DNA of 64,000 bases. It comes from an uncultured Gammaproteobacteria bacterium. Lineage in GTDB: Bacteria > Pseudomonadota > Gammaproteobacteria > DRJJ01. The stretch lies in NCBI GenBank assembly GCA_947258795.1, contig CAMYJU010000009.1:62001-126000 (forward strand), written 5' to 3'. The first letter of the stretch is position 1. The number at the start of each line of letters is the position of its first letter. Shown here piece by piece: positions 52,558-56,664 of this stretch. Below the pieces are notes generated by a model, which saw only the letters and a list, made by a program, of their open reading frames with translations, searched no databases and was not told the origin of the DNA. The position numbers and the translations under genes are program-made.

Positions 52558-53031
52558 ATGGCACGAAAAAAACCCAAGAAATCAAGTAATACCATCGTTT
52601 CGAATAAAAAAGCCCGGCATGACTACTTCATCGAGGAACACCTCGAGGCCGGGCTGGTGCTGGAGGGATGGGAAGTTAAATCGCTGCGTGAGGGCAAGGG
52701 CCAGCTGGTTGACAGCTATGTATTGCTCAAGGGCGGTGAGGCCTATTTACTCGGTTGTGTCATCTCACCGCTGTTATCCGCCTCCACCCATGTCGAGCCG
52801 GACCCGAGCCGCACCCGTAAGTTATTGTTACACAAGGATCAAATCACCAAACTGATCAGCCAGGTCGATCGCAAGGGCTACGCAGTCGTGGCCCTGTCAC
52901 TGTACTGGAAAAAGGGCCGCGTCAAGGTCGATATCGGCATCGCCAAGGGTAAAAAAGACTATGACAAGCGTGCTGTGCAGAAGGACCGCGACTGGCAGCG
53001 TACCAAACAGCGCATCCTCAAACACGGATAA
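52558..53031 (+). CDS. smpB: SsrA-binding protein SmpB
   Basis: This 157-residue RNA-binding protein delivers tmRNA to stalled ribosomes. It has the family pattern [32 protein letters not shown], followed by the basic C-terminal tail ([26 protein letters not shown]) that occupies the mRNA path. Its RNA partner ssrA is encoded about 500 bp downstream on the same strand. Confidence 0.97.
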
Positions 53032-53527: not shown

Positions 53528-53631
53528 GACTAGTACCAAGGGGGCGACCTGGCTTCGACGTGGGTTACGAAACCTGAGGTGCATGCCGAGGAACAGACTA
53601 CCTCGTTAATCCAGCTGTAACACTTATAGTT

Positions 53632-53664
53632 GCCAACGACGACAACTACGCATTAGCCGCTTAA
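53632..53664 (+). other. tmRNA proteolysis tag reading frame
   Basis: From the resume codon GCC the frame reads ANDDNYALAA and stops at TAA (53662-53664). The upstream bases ATAGTT match the conserved resume-codon context (E. coli ATAGTC). The tag ends in the LAA degron recognised by ClpXP and related proteases. Confidence 0.9.
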
Positions 53665-53884
53665 AAACCGGTGTAATGCCCTCTGGCTGAAGCCGTGTCT
53701 ATGCGTTCAGATTTCAGGGGTCATCCTCATAGAATCGCGATGAAGCACGTTCGGGGTGGATTCGTTAAAACTTAACCGGAACCGCCTGTTGTGATCCCTG
53801 CCCGTTGGGTAGCAGCAGGTTAAATTAATTAACGGTATAAGCATGTAGAGCCAAAGGCAGAGGATTTGCGGACGCGGGTTCGAT

Positions 53885-54135
53885 TGGAAATGGTCGCCAT
53901 GGGGAGTGATCCCCATTGGAAAAAGAGGGCTCATACGGTGAACGCTAAGGGATTTATCCTATGCCAACGCCGTCCGGTGAATGGGAAACCAGTAAGCCGG
54001 CTAGAGACTCATAGGCTCCTAAAGCACATGGTGTTATGGAGTACTAGGGTGGGCATTTCGCTCACAACACGCCCTCCCCTGCATTATGCAGGTGAAGGAA
54101 TAGTCCGGCCCTGAATGAAAATTCAGGAACAGCCG
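53885..54135 (+). other. group I intron in the T-loop of ssrA
   Basis: The 251-nt insert has hand-foldable group I elements. The last exon bases CGAT pair with intron GTCG (53893-53896), placing the required U-G wobble at the 5' splice site (P1). A 7-bp hairpin with GTGA loop follows (53899-53916, P2-like). GACT (54006-54009) can pair with AGTC (54102-54105) as P7, with a CCTGCA/TGCAGG hairpin (54078-54092) as P8 just before. A hairpin with GAAA loop (54110-54127) matches P9, and the intron ends in G (54135). No ORF lies inside. It lies between T-loop positions 59 and 60 (tRNA numbering). Subgroup not assigned. Confidence 0.9.
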
Positions 54136-54159
54136 TCCCGCCGCCTCCACCAATATAGA

Positions 54160-54194
54160 CCCTGGCTGGTAAAACAGCCGGGGTTTTATATTAT
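54160..54194 (+). terminator. rho-independent terminator of ssrA
   Basis: A 9-bp stem (CCCTGGCTG with CAGCCGGGG, one G-T pair) around GTAAAA is followed by TTTTATATTAT. It starts 8 bp after the CCA end, showing that the first 3' exon copy is the functional end of the gene and that the endonuclease gene lies outside the tmRNA transcript. Confidence 0.9.
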
Positions 54195-54210
54195 CGCGTA
54201 AGGAGCAAGG

Positions 54211-54654
54211 ATGGCCACTTACAAAAAAACCAACCAACTCAATTCTGTTGATGCTGCCTATATTGCGGGACTTATCGATGGCGAAGGTACAATTTCGCTT
54301 ACACGAAGACACAAGAACGAAAACCGTCAACTTGAAATTAGTATCAGTAATACCGAGATACCACTCCTGAAATTTGTACTTGAGTGCGTGGGAACTGGAC
54401 GGATAACCCGAAAGAAGGTCTATTCAAACAAACATACACCTAGTGCCACTTACATAGTTAGTAATCGACAAGCGCTTGATCTGCTCGAACAAATCACACC
54501 ATATTTACGTACCTATAAGAGAAAACGAGCGAAAATATTGTTAGCAGACTATCTACGCCTGACGCCTCGGAATGGCAAATACACGGAAGATCTACATATG
54601 GAAAGAGATAAATTTATTTCTAAATTTCTTGAGACAAAGCCAACATTTATCTAA
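54211..54654 (+). CDS. LAGLIDADG homing endonuclease (single motif)
   Basis: A 147-residue protein with one LAGLIDADG motif, IAGLIDGEG at 18-26 (acidic catalytic residue E25), followed by the usual beta-strand DNA-binding pattern (TISLTRRHKNENRQLEISISNTEIPLL). Single-motif enzymes act as homodimers. AAGGAG precedes the ATG by 5 nt. The gene is AT-rich compared with the host. It lies downstream of the ssrA terminator, between two copies of the ssrA 3' end, not inside the intron. The likely target is an intronless ssrA T-loop. Confidence 0.88.
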   Translation: MATYKKTNQLNSVDAAYIAGLIDGEGTISLTRRHKNENRQLEISISNTEIPLLKFVLECVGTGRITRKKVYSNKHTPSATYIVSNRQALDLLEQITPYLRTYKRKRAKILLADYLRLTPRNGKYTEDLHMERDKFISKFLETKPTFI

Positions 54655-54670
54655 ATATAAAAATTCGGAG

Positions 54671-54695
54671 GGTTCGATTCCCGCCGCCTCCACCA
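54671..54695 (+). repeat. second, intronless copy of the ssrA T-arm and acceptor end
   Basis: GGTTCGATTCCCGCCGCCTC plus CACCA repeats the uninterrupted tmRNA 3' end. An 18-bp identity (TCCCGCCGCCTCCACCAA) is shared with 54136-54153, the real 3' exon. There is no terminator behind it. It looks like the original chromosomal 3' end left behind after insertion of the 3'-exon/terminator/endonuclease segment. Confidence 0.9.
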
Positions 54696-55113
54696 ACCAA
54701 AAGCTACATTTATATATATTTCAATAAGTTATAATTTTGCCAAAATTAAAAGTTAACCAAATTTGGTCAACTTTTGGCATATTTAGGCATAGCGTGGTCA
54801 AAATTTGGTCAACTTTTTTGCAATGGTGTAGCACTACGAAATTCACCAGTACGCACCTCAATATGCCTATGGCTCACTCTGAGTTTTATTGGAAATCATC
54901 GCTCAAAGTCCAGAAATGAATCATTTTCTATAGGGTCAATCCTGTCAGCCTGCTTCAGAGCAGACAGCAATAACCGCCATTAAGCCAAAACCCCCTTCCC
55001 TGAAAAATTGCGCAGAAAAACCTATATTACACTCGACACAATAACCTATTAATGGTACAACCTAATAACCTAGGTTTGGCACGCTGTAAAAACCAATGAA
55101 GAGAACGTAGAAC
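54696..55113. promoter_or_regulatory. AT-rich gap with operator-like palindromes before the fic gene
   Basis: This 418-bp gap contains GTTAACCAAATTTGGTCAAC (54752-54771), a 20-bp palindrome with one mismatch. The core AATTTGGTCAACTTTT recurs at 54802-54817. No gene is convincing here. The repeats could bind a regulator of the downstream Fic gene, possibly its own AbiEi-like domain; that is inference. Confidence 0.5.
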
Positions 55114-56664
55114 ATGGTAGCTCCTTCAGAAAAACTGGCCCGATCTCTTGAAGCTTTGAAATCGCTTCAGGATCGTGGCGTGGTCGCTATCCGTTCAAGC
55201 GACCTGGAACGTCTCGACCGGGAACGTCTTGTTAAGAACGGTTTTCTGCAATCTGTAATGAAGGGATGGTACATCCCTTCCCGTCCTGATGAGGTGGCCG
55301 GTGAAAGCACAGCCTGGTATGCCTCATTCTGGGATTTTTGCGGCTCATATCTGAACGAGCGTTTTGGGACAGACTGGTGCCTGTCACCTGAACAGTCCCT
55401 GCTATTGCATGCCGGAAACCGAACAGTGCCACGCCAGCTATTGGTCCGCTCGCCAAAAGGTGATAACAAGATCACAGGACTCCCGCATGACACATCACTC
55501 TTGACTGTCCGGTACAACATGCCGGATGAGCAGGACATAGAAGTAACAAAAGGTCTGAACCTGTATGCCCTGATTCCAGCCTTGATTGATTGTACGCCCA
55601 GATTATTTCAGCAAAATCCGACCGACATTCGCGCTGCACTATCTATCATTCCTGATGCCTCAGAAGTCCTTGCAAAACTACTTAAGGGCGGGCATACCAC
55701 CATTGCCGGGCGGCTAGCTGGCGCATTTCGTAATATTGGTCGTGATCGCATTGCGGACGATATTGTAAAGACTATGCGCGCTGCCGATTTTGACGTGAGG
55801 AAATTTGATCCGTTTGATACAAAACTGCCTGTCATCCTATCCAGCAGAGAACTTTCTCCTTATGTAAATCGCATACGTCTAATGTGGCATGCGATGCGCG
55901 AACCAATCATAGAACGCTTCCCGGAAGCACCGGGTATTCCTAAAGACATCAAGACTTATATACAACATGTTGAGGATATTTATGTCACCGATGCCTATCA
56001 CTCTTTATCAATTGAGGGTTATCGTGTCAGTGCTGAATTGATTGAGCGGGTGCGAAATCAGAGCTGGAACCCGGACGAAGACGAAGATGACCGGGAACAG
56101 CGCAATGCCATGGCAGCGCGCGGCTACTATCAGGCCTTCCAGGCCGTCAAAGAAAGCATCACAAAGGTCCTCAAGAACGACAACCCCGGCATCGTTGTCG
56201 ATGACGATCACGGCACATGGTACCGGGAGCTGTTTGCGCCCAGCGTTACAGCAGGTATTTTGCAGATTGCTGACCTTGCAGGCTACCGAAATGACCAGGT
56301 CTATATCCGCTACTCCCTGCACACCCCCCCAAAGCGGGAAGCGGTACGTGACCTCATGCCTGCGCTTTTTGATCTTATCAAAGAAGAAAATAACCCGGCT
56401 GTCCGGGTTGTACTGGGACATTTCATGTTTGTGTATATTCATCCTTATATGGACGGCAACGGGCGCATGGGACGGTTTTTAATGAATGTCATGCTAGCCG
56501 CTGGCGGCTATCCGTGGACGGTCATACCCGTAGAAGAGCGCAACGCCTATATGGAAGCACTCGAAGCCGCCAGTACCGCTGAGGATATTGGTCCTTTCAC
56601 TGACTTTCTTGCCACTCTGGTCAGAGATAACCTTGAAGGTAAACCAGGACCAACAGTGCCCTGA
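55114..56664 (+). CDS. Fic family protein with AbiEi-like N-terminal domain
   Basis: This 516-residue protein has two parts. Residues ~10-60 (ALKSLQDRGVVAIRSSDLERL... FLQSVMKGWYIPS) resemble the winged-helix start of AbiEi-type antitoxins, and the AbiEi-like region continues to about 240. The C-terminal Fic domain has the catalytic motif HPYMDGNGRMGR from H443. An inhibitory-helix motif S-x3-E-G lies at S297-E301-G302, upstream of the Fic core (class II, self-inhibited type). Fic enzymes usually transfer AMP to Ser, Thr or Tyr; the target here is unknown. No separate antitoxin gene is adjacent. Location just past ssrA suggests horizontal gain. Confidence 0.85.
   Translation: MVAPSEKLARSLEALKSLQDRGVVAIRSSDLERLDRERLVKNGFLQSVMKGWYIPSRPDEVAGESTAWYASFWDFCGSYLNERFGTDWCLSPEQSLLLHAGNRTVPRQLLVRSPKGDNKITGLPHDTSLLTVRYNMPDEQDIEVTKGLNLYALIPALIDCTPRLFQQNPTDIRAALSIIPDASEVLAKLLKGGHTTIAGRLAGAFRNIGRDRIADDIVKTMRAADFDVRKFDPFDTKLPVILSSRELSPYVNRIRLMWHAMREPIIERFPEAPGIPKDIKTYIQHVEDIYVTDAYHSLSIEGYRVSAELIERVRNQSWNPDEDEDDREQRNAMAARGYYQAFQAVKESITKVLKNDNPGIVVDDDHGTWYRELFAPSVTAGILQIADLAGYRNDQVYIRYSLHTPPKREAVRDLMPALFDLIKEENNPAVRVVLGHFMFVYIHPYMDGNGRMGRFLMNVMLAAGGYPWTVIPVEERNAYMEALEAASTAEDIGPFTDFLATLVRDNLEGKPGPTVP

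Follow-up and report, generated by a model that had tools for sequence, protein, structure and literature searches.

A group I intron in the tmRNA gene and a free-standing LAGLIDADG endonuclease gene as a candidate collaborative-homing pair in Gammaproteobacteria

The ssrA locus of an uncultured gammaproteobacterium raised the question of why a tmRNA gene should be followed by a second copy of its own 3′ end, with an endonuclease gene between the two. The locus lies in a 64,000-nucleotide stretch of contig CAMYJU010000009.1 (hereafter, the window), from a genome labeled G000 whose sister genome is labeled G001. A sequence-only reading of the window had described the order exon 1, intron, exon 2, terminator, LAGLIDADG gene and distal copy, and had reported 18 identical bases in the regions of exon 2 and the distal copy. 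Both descriptions were confirmed, the shared bases being TCCCGCCGCCTCCACCAA, and G001 presents the identical order of parts, including the distal copy. The features of the locus are as follows.

52,558–53,031, + strand: smpB
53,540–53,884, + strand: ssrA (tmRNA) exon 1 (RF00023, E 5e-68; 92% identity to G001), with the T-loop end at GGGTTCGAT
53,885–54,135, + strand: group I intron of 251 nt without an ORF, at T-loop position 7 (TTCGAT^T); 157 bits with its own covariance model
54,136–54,152, + strand: ssrA exon 2 (3′ strand of the T-stem, 3′ strand of the acceptor stem, CCA), an exact match to the spliced ssrA 3′ end
54,157–54,186, + strand: intrinsic terminator 3′ of exon 2 (12 pairs and a T-tail; fold z −3.5)
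54,211–54,654, + strand: free-standing LAGLIDADG ORF of 147 aa (PF00961, E 8e-8; PF14528, E 6e-7)
54,655–54,669, + strand: 15-nt spacer from the endonuclease stop to the distal copy, read directly from the sequence
54,670–54,695, + strand: distal copy, intronless, of the 26-nt 3′ end of spliced ssrA, from T-arm to CCA (26/26 identity)
54,696–54,873, + strand: conserved, island-end-like flank with the inverted repeat AAAAGTTAACC..GGTCAACTTTT (86–88% identity in G001; partial copy at G000:C7)

The start of ssrA at position 53,540 was set by eye from the acceptor-stem pairing. The tmRNA tag read from exon 1 is ANDDNYALAA, exon 2 has the sequence TCCCGCCGCCTCCACCA, and the ATG of the LAGLIDADG ORF is preceded by AAGGAG. 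At window positions 53,548–53,886 the Rfam RF00023 alignment ends at the T-loop, and ARAGORN called no tmRNA at the ssrA locus when run on the window; standard annotation would miss or truncate ssrA genes split by an intron in this manner. Besides the bases held in common with exon 2, the distal copy matches nine bases of the end of exon 1, and it therefore corresponds in full to the final 26 nt of spliced ssrA. With up to three mismatches allowed, this 26-mer has no second occurrence in the genome, and the chance expectation for 17-mer matches with three or fewer mismatches in the window is 0.25.

The window intron, which follows a U at position −1 and ends in a G, has its insertion site and both boundary bases in common with the T-loop group I introns known from tmRNA genes (PMC11915505), and the same site, −1 U and terminal G were found at all 53 loci listed, representing 47 distinct introns. 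A consensus fold for 46 introns comprises 51 base pairs, 30 of which show compensatory changes, a conserved, covarying core of the kind expected of group I tmRNA introns. A search with RF00028, the Rfam group I model, returned no match to the window intron up to an E-value of 5; since Rfam is without a tmRNA-intron model (PMC11915505), we read this as a gap in the library and not as evidence against a group I assignment. The introns fall into two subtypes, and those of the window and of G001 belong to different ones despite the 92% identity of their first exons. In the introns of three loci (L103, L109 and L113), an extra segment of ~70–100 nt lies between the inverted repeats GGGGTCAGAGTCGA and TCGACTCTGACCCC, and looks as if a small mobile element had been inserted into a peripheral loop.

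The published set of tmRNA introns counted endonuclease genes only where they lie within the intron, as they do in 36 of 883 introns, and the same 2025 survey set the resulting 4.1% against 54% for archaeal rRNA introns (PMC11915505). In the window, by contrast, the enzyme is encoded outside the intron, 3′ of exon 2. Searching 369 gammaproteobacterial genomes at the protein level identified relatives of this endonuclease in 18, and ssrA lies directly 5′ of the relative in all 18. The intron covariance model, applied to the same genomes, detected 19 strong introns; a twentieth, in G193, is cut by a contig edge. The enzyme missing from gammaproteobacterial tmRNA introns is present outside them at 16 of these 20 sampled ssrA genes, where it follows exon 2 directly as an intact gene or as a relic. 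Four genomes (G033, G082, G091 and G303) carry the intron without the endonuclease, two (G015 and G080) carry a broken endonuclease relic, never an intact gene, 3′ of an intronless ssrA, and the remaining 347 carry neither (Fisher p = 2e-22 for co-occurrence, uncorrected for shared ancestry). Among 84,980 species genomes, an intron-split ssrA lies 5′ of 30 of 31 endonuclease relatives, the remaining one being a cyanobacterial protein of 31% identity; named hosts include Thiocapsa, Methylophaga, Thioalkalivibrio, Parahaliea and Chromatocurvus. The pairing of intron and endonuclease at ssrA is more than a peculiarity of one locus. Mantel tests of whether the two parts descended together gave only a weak signal, intron and endonuclease distances being weakly correlated (partial r 0.09). 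One contig with both parts, JALOOE010000471.1 (L121), is filed under an Anaerolineae metagenome-assembled genome; its ssrA, intron and endonuclease are of gammaproteobacterial type, and it is probably misbinned.

The endonuclease matches I-MsoI in a profile search of the PDB (E 1e-13), and its AlphaFold model (pLDDT 91) has I-CreI as a Foldseek match (TM 0.7–0.75). The model predicts the alpha-beta-beta-alpha-beta-beta-alpha fold of LAGLIDADG enzymes, and the catalytic-acid motif, D23-G-E25-G, is invariant in all 23 intact members. In fold, size and motif the window enzyme is like the single-motif endonucleases I-CreI and I-MsoI, and it would be expected to act as a homodimer; those two enzymes are encoded within rRNA introns, whereas the window enzyme is free-standing at ssrA. 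Ratios of dN/dS between 0.05 and 0.13 in five pairs of relatives show that the gene is kept by selection in the lineages of those pairs. As a target, the T-loop falls short of a full palindrome, its symmetry by eye being confined to the T-stem (GCGGG-N7-CCCGC); a scan requiring at least 7 of 10 symmetric pairs found no center, and we therefore claim no cut site. At another locus (L245, in G372, about positions 800–1150), an endonuclease gene containing LTPRNGKY appears to be reversed, on the minus strand, 3′ of an intron-bearing ssrA.

The reading that we consider probable is that intron and endonuclease form a two-part mobile unit at ssrA that spreads by collaborative homing, with the distal copy left by one-sided repair. 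The T-loop intron, itself without an ORF, would splice itself out, so that the tmRNA survives, and its presence in the T-loop would destroy the target of the endonuclease. The LAGLIDADG enzyme would cut ssrA genes that lack the intron, in the T-loop or close to it, and the intron would be copied in as the break is repaired from the donor. Long homology would be available on the left only, in exon 1, against 17 nt of exon 2 on the right; repair synthesis would then continue through exon 2, the terminator and the endonuclease gene, and the right-hand end of the recipient would be joined by short or illegitimate homology. The product would be exon 1, intron, donor exon 2, terminator, endonuclease and old 3′ end, which is the order found in the window. 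The old 3′ end, no longer needed, would decay in most lineages and would survive in the window probably because it was also the end of a genomic island integrated at ssrA. One-sided illegitimate repair during intron homing has been documented in phage T4 (PMC2988022). The weak correlation of intron and endonuclease distances and the different intron subtypes of the window and G001 count against this reading.

A free-standing endonuclease gene that adjoins an intron-bearing gene, and lies outside the intron, is the arrangement on which collaborative homing was defined in cyanophage, with the psbA intron and F-CphI (Zeng, Bonocora and Shub 2009, as described in PMC6083498 and PMC3984707). As far as those descriptions go, the psbA system likewise combines an ORF-less group I intron with a separate adjoining endonuclease gene, and its intron interrupts the presumed target and so shields the host gene. 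The ssrA pair differs in that its target is a cellular tmRNA gene on bacterial chromosomes, its enzyme is of the LAGLIDADG family where F-CphI is Endo VII-like, it recurs across many families, its cleavage is predicted only, and a second 3′ end of the target gene may follow the enzyme. A further parallel is trans homing of the T4 nrdB intron by mobE, cited in PMC2988022 alongside I-TevIII, in which, going by that citation, a free-standing endonuclease mobilizes a neighboring intron that lacks a working enzyme, as we propose here, in a phage context and with another enzyme family. We found no account combining group I introns, tmRNA and collaborative homing in the literature, where subscription journals were sparsely covered. 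If the proposed reading is correct, the ssrA pair would represent chromosomal, recurrent collaborative homing at a cellular gene, a system so far described, in the largely open literature consulted, from phages.

Gain, decay and loss are the expected stages in the life of a homing element. Within the genus g80, ssrA is empty of both intron and enzyme in five genomes (G204, G425, G427, G431 and G432), carries the intron and an intact enzyme gene in G421, the intron and an enzyme relic in G435 and the intron only in G429, and is followed in G080 by a relic only, the intron having been lost. The locus types of g80 match the stages expected of a homing cycle, with the enzyme outside the intron, and the genus offers a test ground for the model. 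In the comparison of relatives with and without the intron that the sequence-only reading had proposed, g80 displays every stage; no intronless relative sharing the right flank of the window's distal copy was found, which counts against the proposed reading. The proposal that the free-standing endonuclease serves the adjoining intron was well borne out by the pairing at 16 of 20 introns and 30 of 31 relatives, and comparative sequence evidence of this kind strongly supports collaborative homing of the tmRNA intron by the adjoining enzyme.

Two other accounts of the endonuclease would sever or loosen its link to intron mobility. That it is a maturase, or a bystander hitch-hiking with the ssrA locus, has in its favor that some LAGLIDADG proteins are maturases, with bI3 among the profile and fold matches, and that four introns persist without any endonuclease. 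Persistence of the intron, together with tmRNA genes that look intact where the enzyme is absent or decayed, argues against dependence on a maturase; the acid of the catalytic motif is invariant and the enzymes matched best, those of the I-CreI/I-MsoI group, are DNA endonucleases, and we judge this account very improbable. Only slightly more credible, and still improbable, is that the enzyme cuts the intergenic region downstream of ssrA and homes there by intronless homing, its link with the intron being indirect. Free-standing endonucleases often home beside their target (PMC6083498), and in g80 the gene lies directly 3′ of a native-type terminator; the endonuclease, however, occurs almost only together with the intron, and the intron-free ssrA loci that carry it hold dead relics only, as expected if an active enzyme beside an intact T-loop is not tolerated.

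Where the distal copy came from is less certain than collaborative homing itself. The sequence-only reading held that the inserted segment brought a replacement 3′ end and left the old one as the distal copy, and the evidence supports this in part. The gap between the endonuclease stop and the distal copy measures 15 nt in G000, 20 nt in G331 and 15 nt in L121, a spacing in three lineages that would fit one-sided homing. The L121 copy opens 2 nt into exon 2, and behind it lies a terminator-like hairpin that by eye resembles the one 3′ of exon 2 and folds no better than shuffled sequences; no intronless relative of L121 sharing its downstream gene was found. The G331 copy, degenerate and 540 nt 3′ of exon 2, has a loop that reads GACT, as in the intronless sister G370, where exon 1 of G331 itself reads GAT, a one-letter match that may weakly support an origin from the old end. 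Against these observations, an ssrA 3′-end copy lies within 350 nt downstream of 3 of 66 intronless ssrA genes, where the copies look like integrase attachment scars, so that the endonuclease loci do not stand out by the mere frequency of copies, and the right flank of the window copy resembles an island end. The window copy also reaches 9 nt to the left of the intron site, more than a cut exactly at the insertion site with a 4-nt overhang would leave, which counts against the model. The search for the same downstream copy at other tmRNA introns, likewise suggested by the earlier reading, turned up G331 and L121; just 3′ of the endonuclease stop at the other loci there was mostly no distal remnant, and copies are clear only in the window and L121. 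They are detectable in about 3 of some 40 independent lineages, and since none can be detected at most loci with intron and endonuclease, the distal copy is not a required part. A variant in which intron, replacement exon 2, terminator and endonuclease insert at the T-loop as one composite element, supplying a new 3′ end, with the displaced old end serving as right-hand homology through which the endonuclease can move along with the intron, is possible but leans toward the doubtful.

Rather unlikely, in our assessment, is a scar of attachment. On this account ssrA was the integration site of a tyrosine-integrase island, whose attL and attR (or core sequence) are the two 3′ ends, and the endonuclease lies between them only as a native of the region downstream of ssrA. 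Such an origin would account for the copies at intronless ssrA genes and for several properties of the right flank. The 178 bp 3′ of the distal copy are 86–88% identical in G001, against 74–77% for the neighboring coding genes; the flank recurs at G000:C7:58,762–58,901, joined to a 19-nt ssrA 3′ end and away from any tRNA; it loosely resembles the flank of the intronless ssrA in G425 (score 28, shuffle maximum 26); and the cargo beyond it differs, with a Fic gene in the window (55,114–56,664) and a HigBA-like pair in G001 (L067, 7,569–8,297). Other genomes gave short AT-rich matches to the flank, which we attribute to chance. Like islands that integrate into ssrA by means of a tyrosine integrase, the window locus has a second 3′-end copy downstream and an island-end-like flank; unlike them, it has only 0.5 kb between the copies, an interval consisting of terminator and endonuclease without an integrase, and no tyrosine recombinase gene (PF00589) was found near the locus. 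An island entering an intron-bearing ssrA would, moreover, sit between exon 2 and its terminator and not past the endonuclease, and the start of the copy 15–20 nt past the endonuclease stop in three lineages likewise speaks against a scar. We infer, retaining one-sided homing as the source of the distal copy, that this copy was formerly an ssrA 3′ end at which an island had integrated and that the intron–endonuclease unit inserted ahead of it; the opposite succession, in which an island used the distal copy as its site, is possible.

No near match to the right flank, and no close relative of the endonuclease, was found among viral contigs, phages, plasmids and E. coli genomes. The third copy of the flank (L076, L081) has nif-cluster genes (clpX-like) on one side and an AbiE-like gene pair on the other, and neither a tRNA nor a tmRNA gene is near. 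In G015, contig C29 contains a direct repeat of ~680 bp (L069, 5,426–6,105 and 13,821–14,499), its copies 8.4 kb apart, which begins inside the ssrA 3′ end, in exon 2, and spans the terminator and the endonuclease relic, with the first 300 bp identical. This repeat, which would also suit attachment of an island, probably represents an island or a duplication at ssrA.
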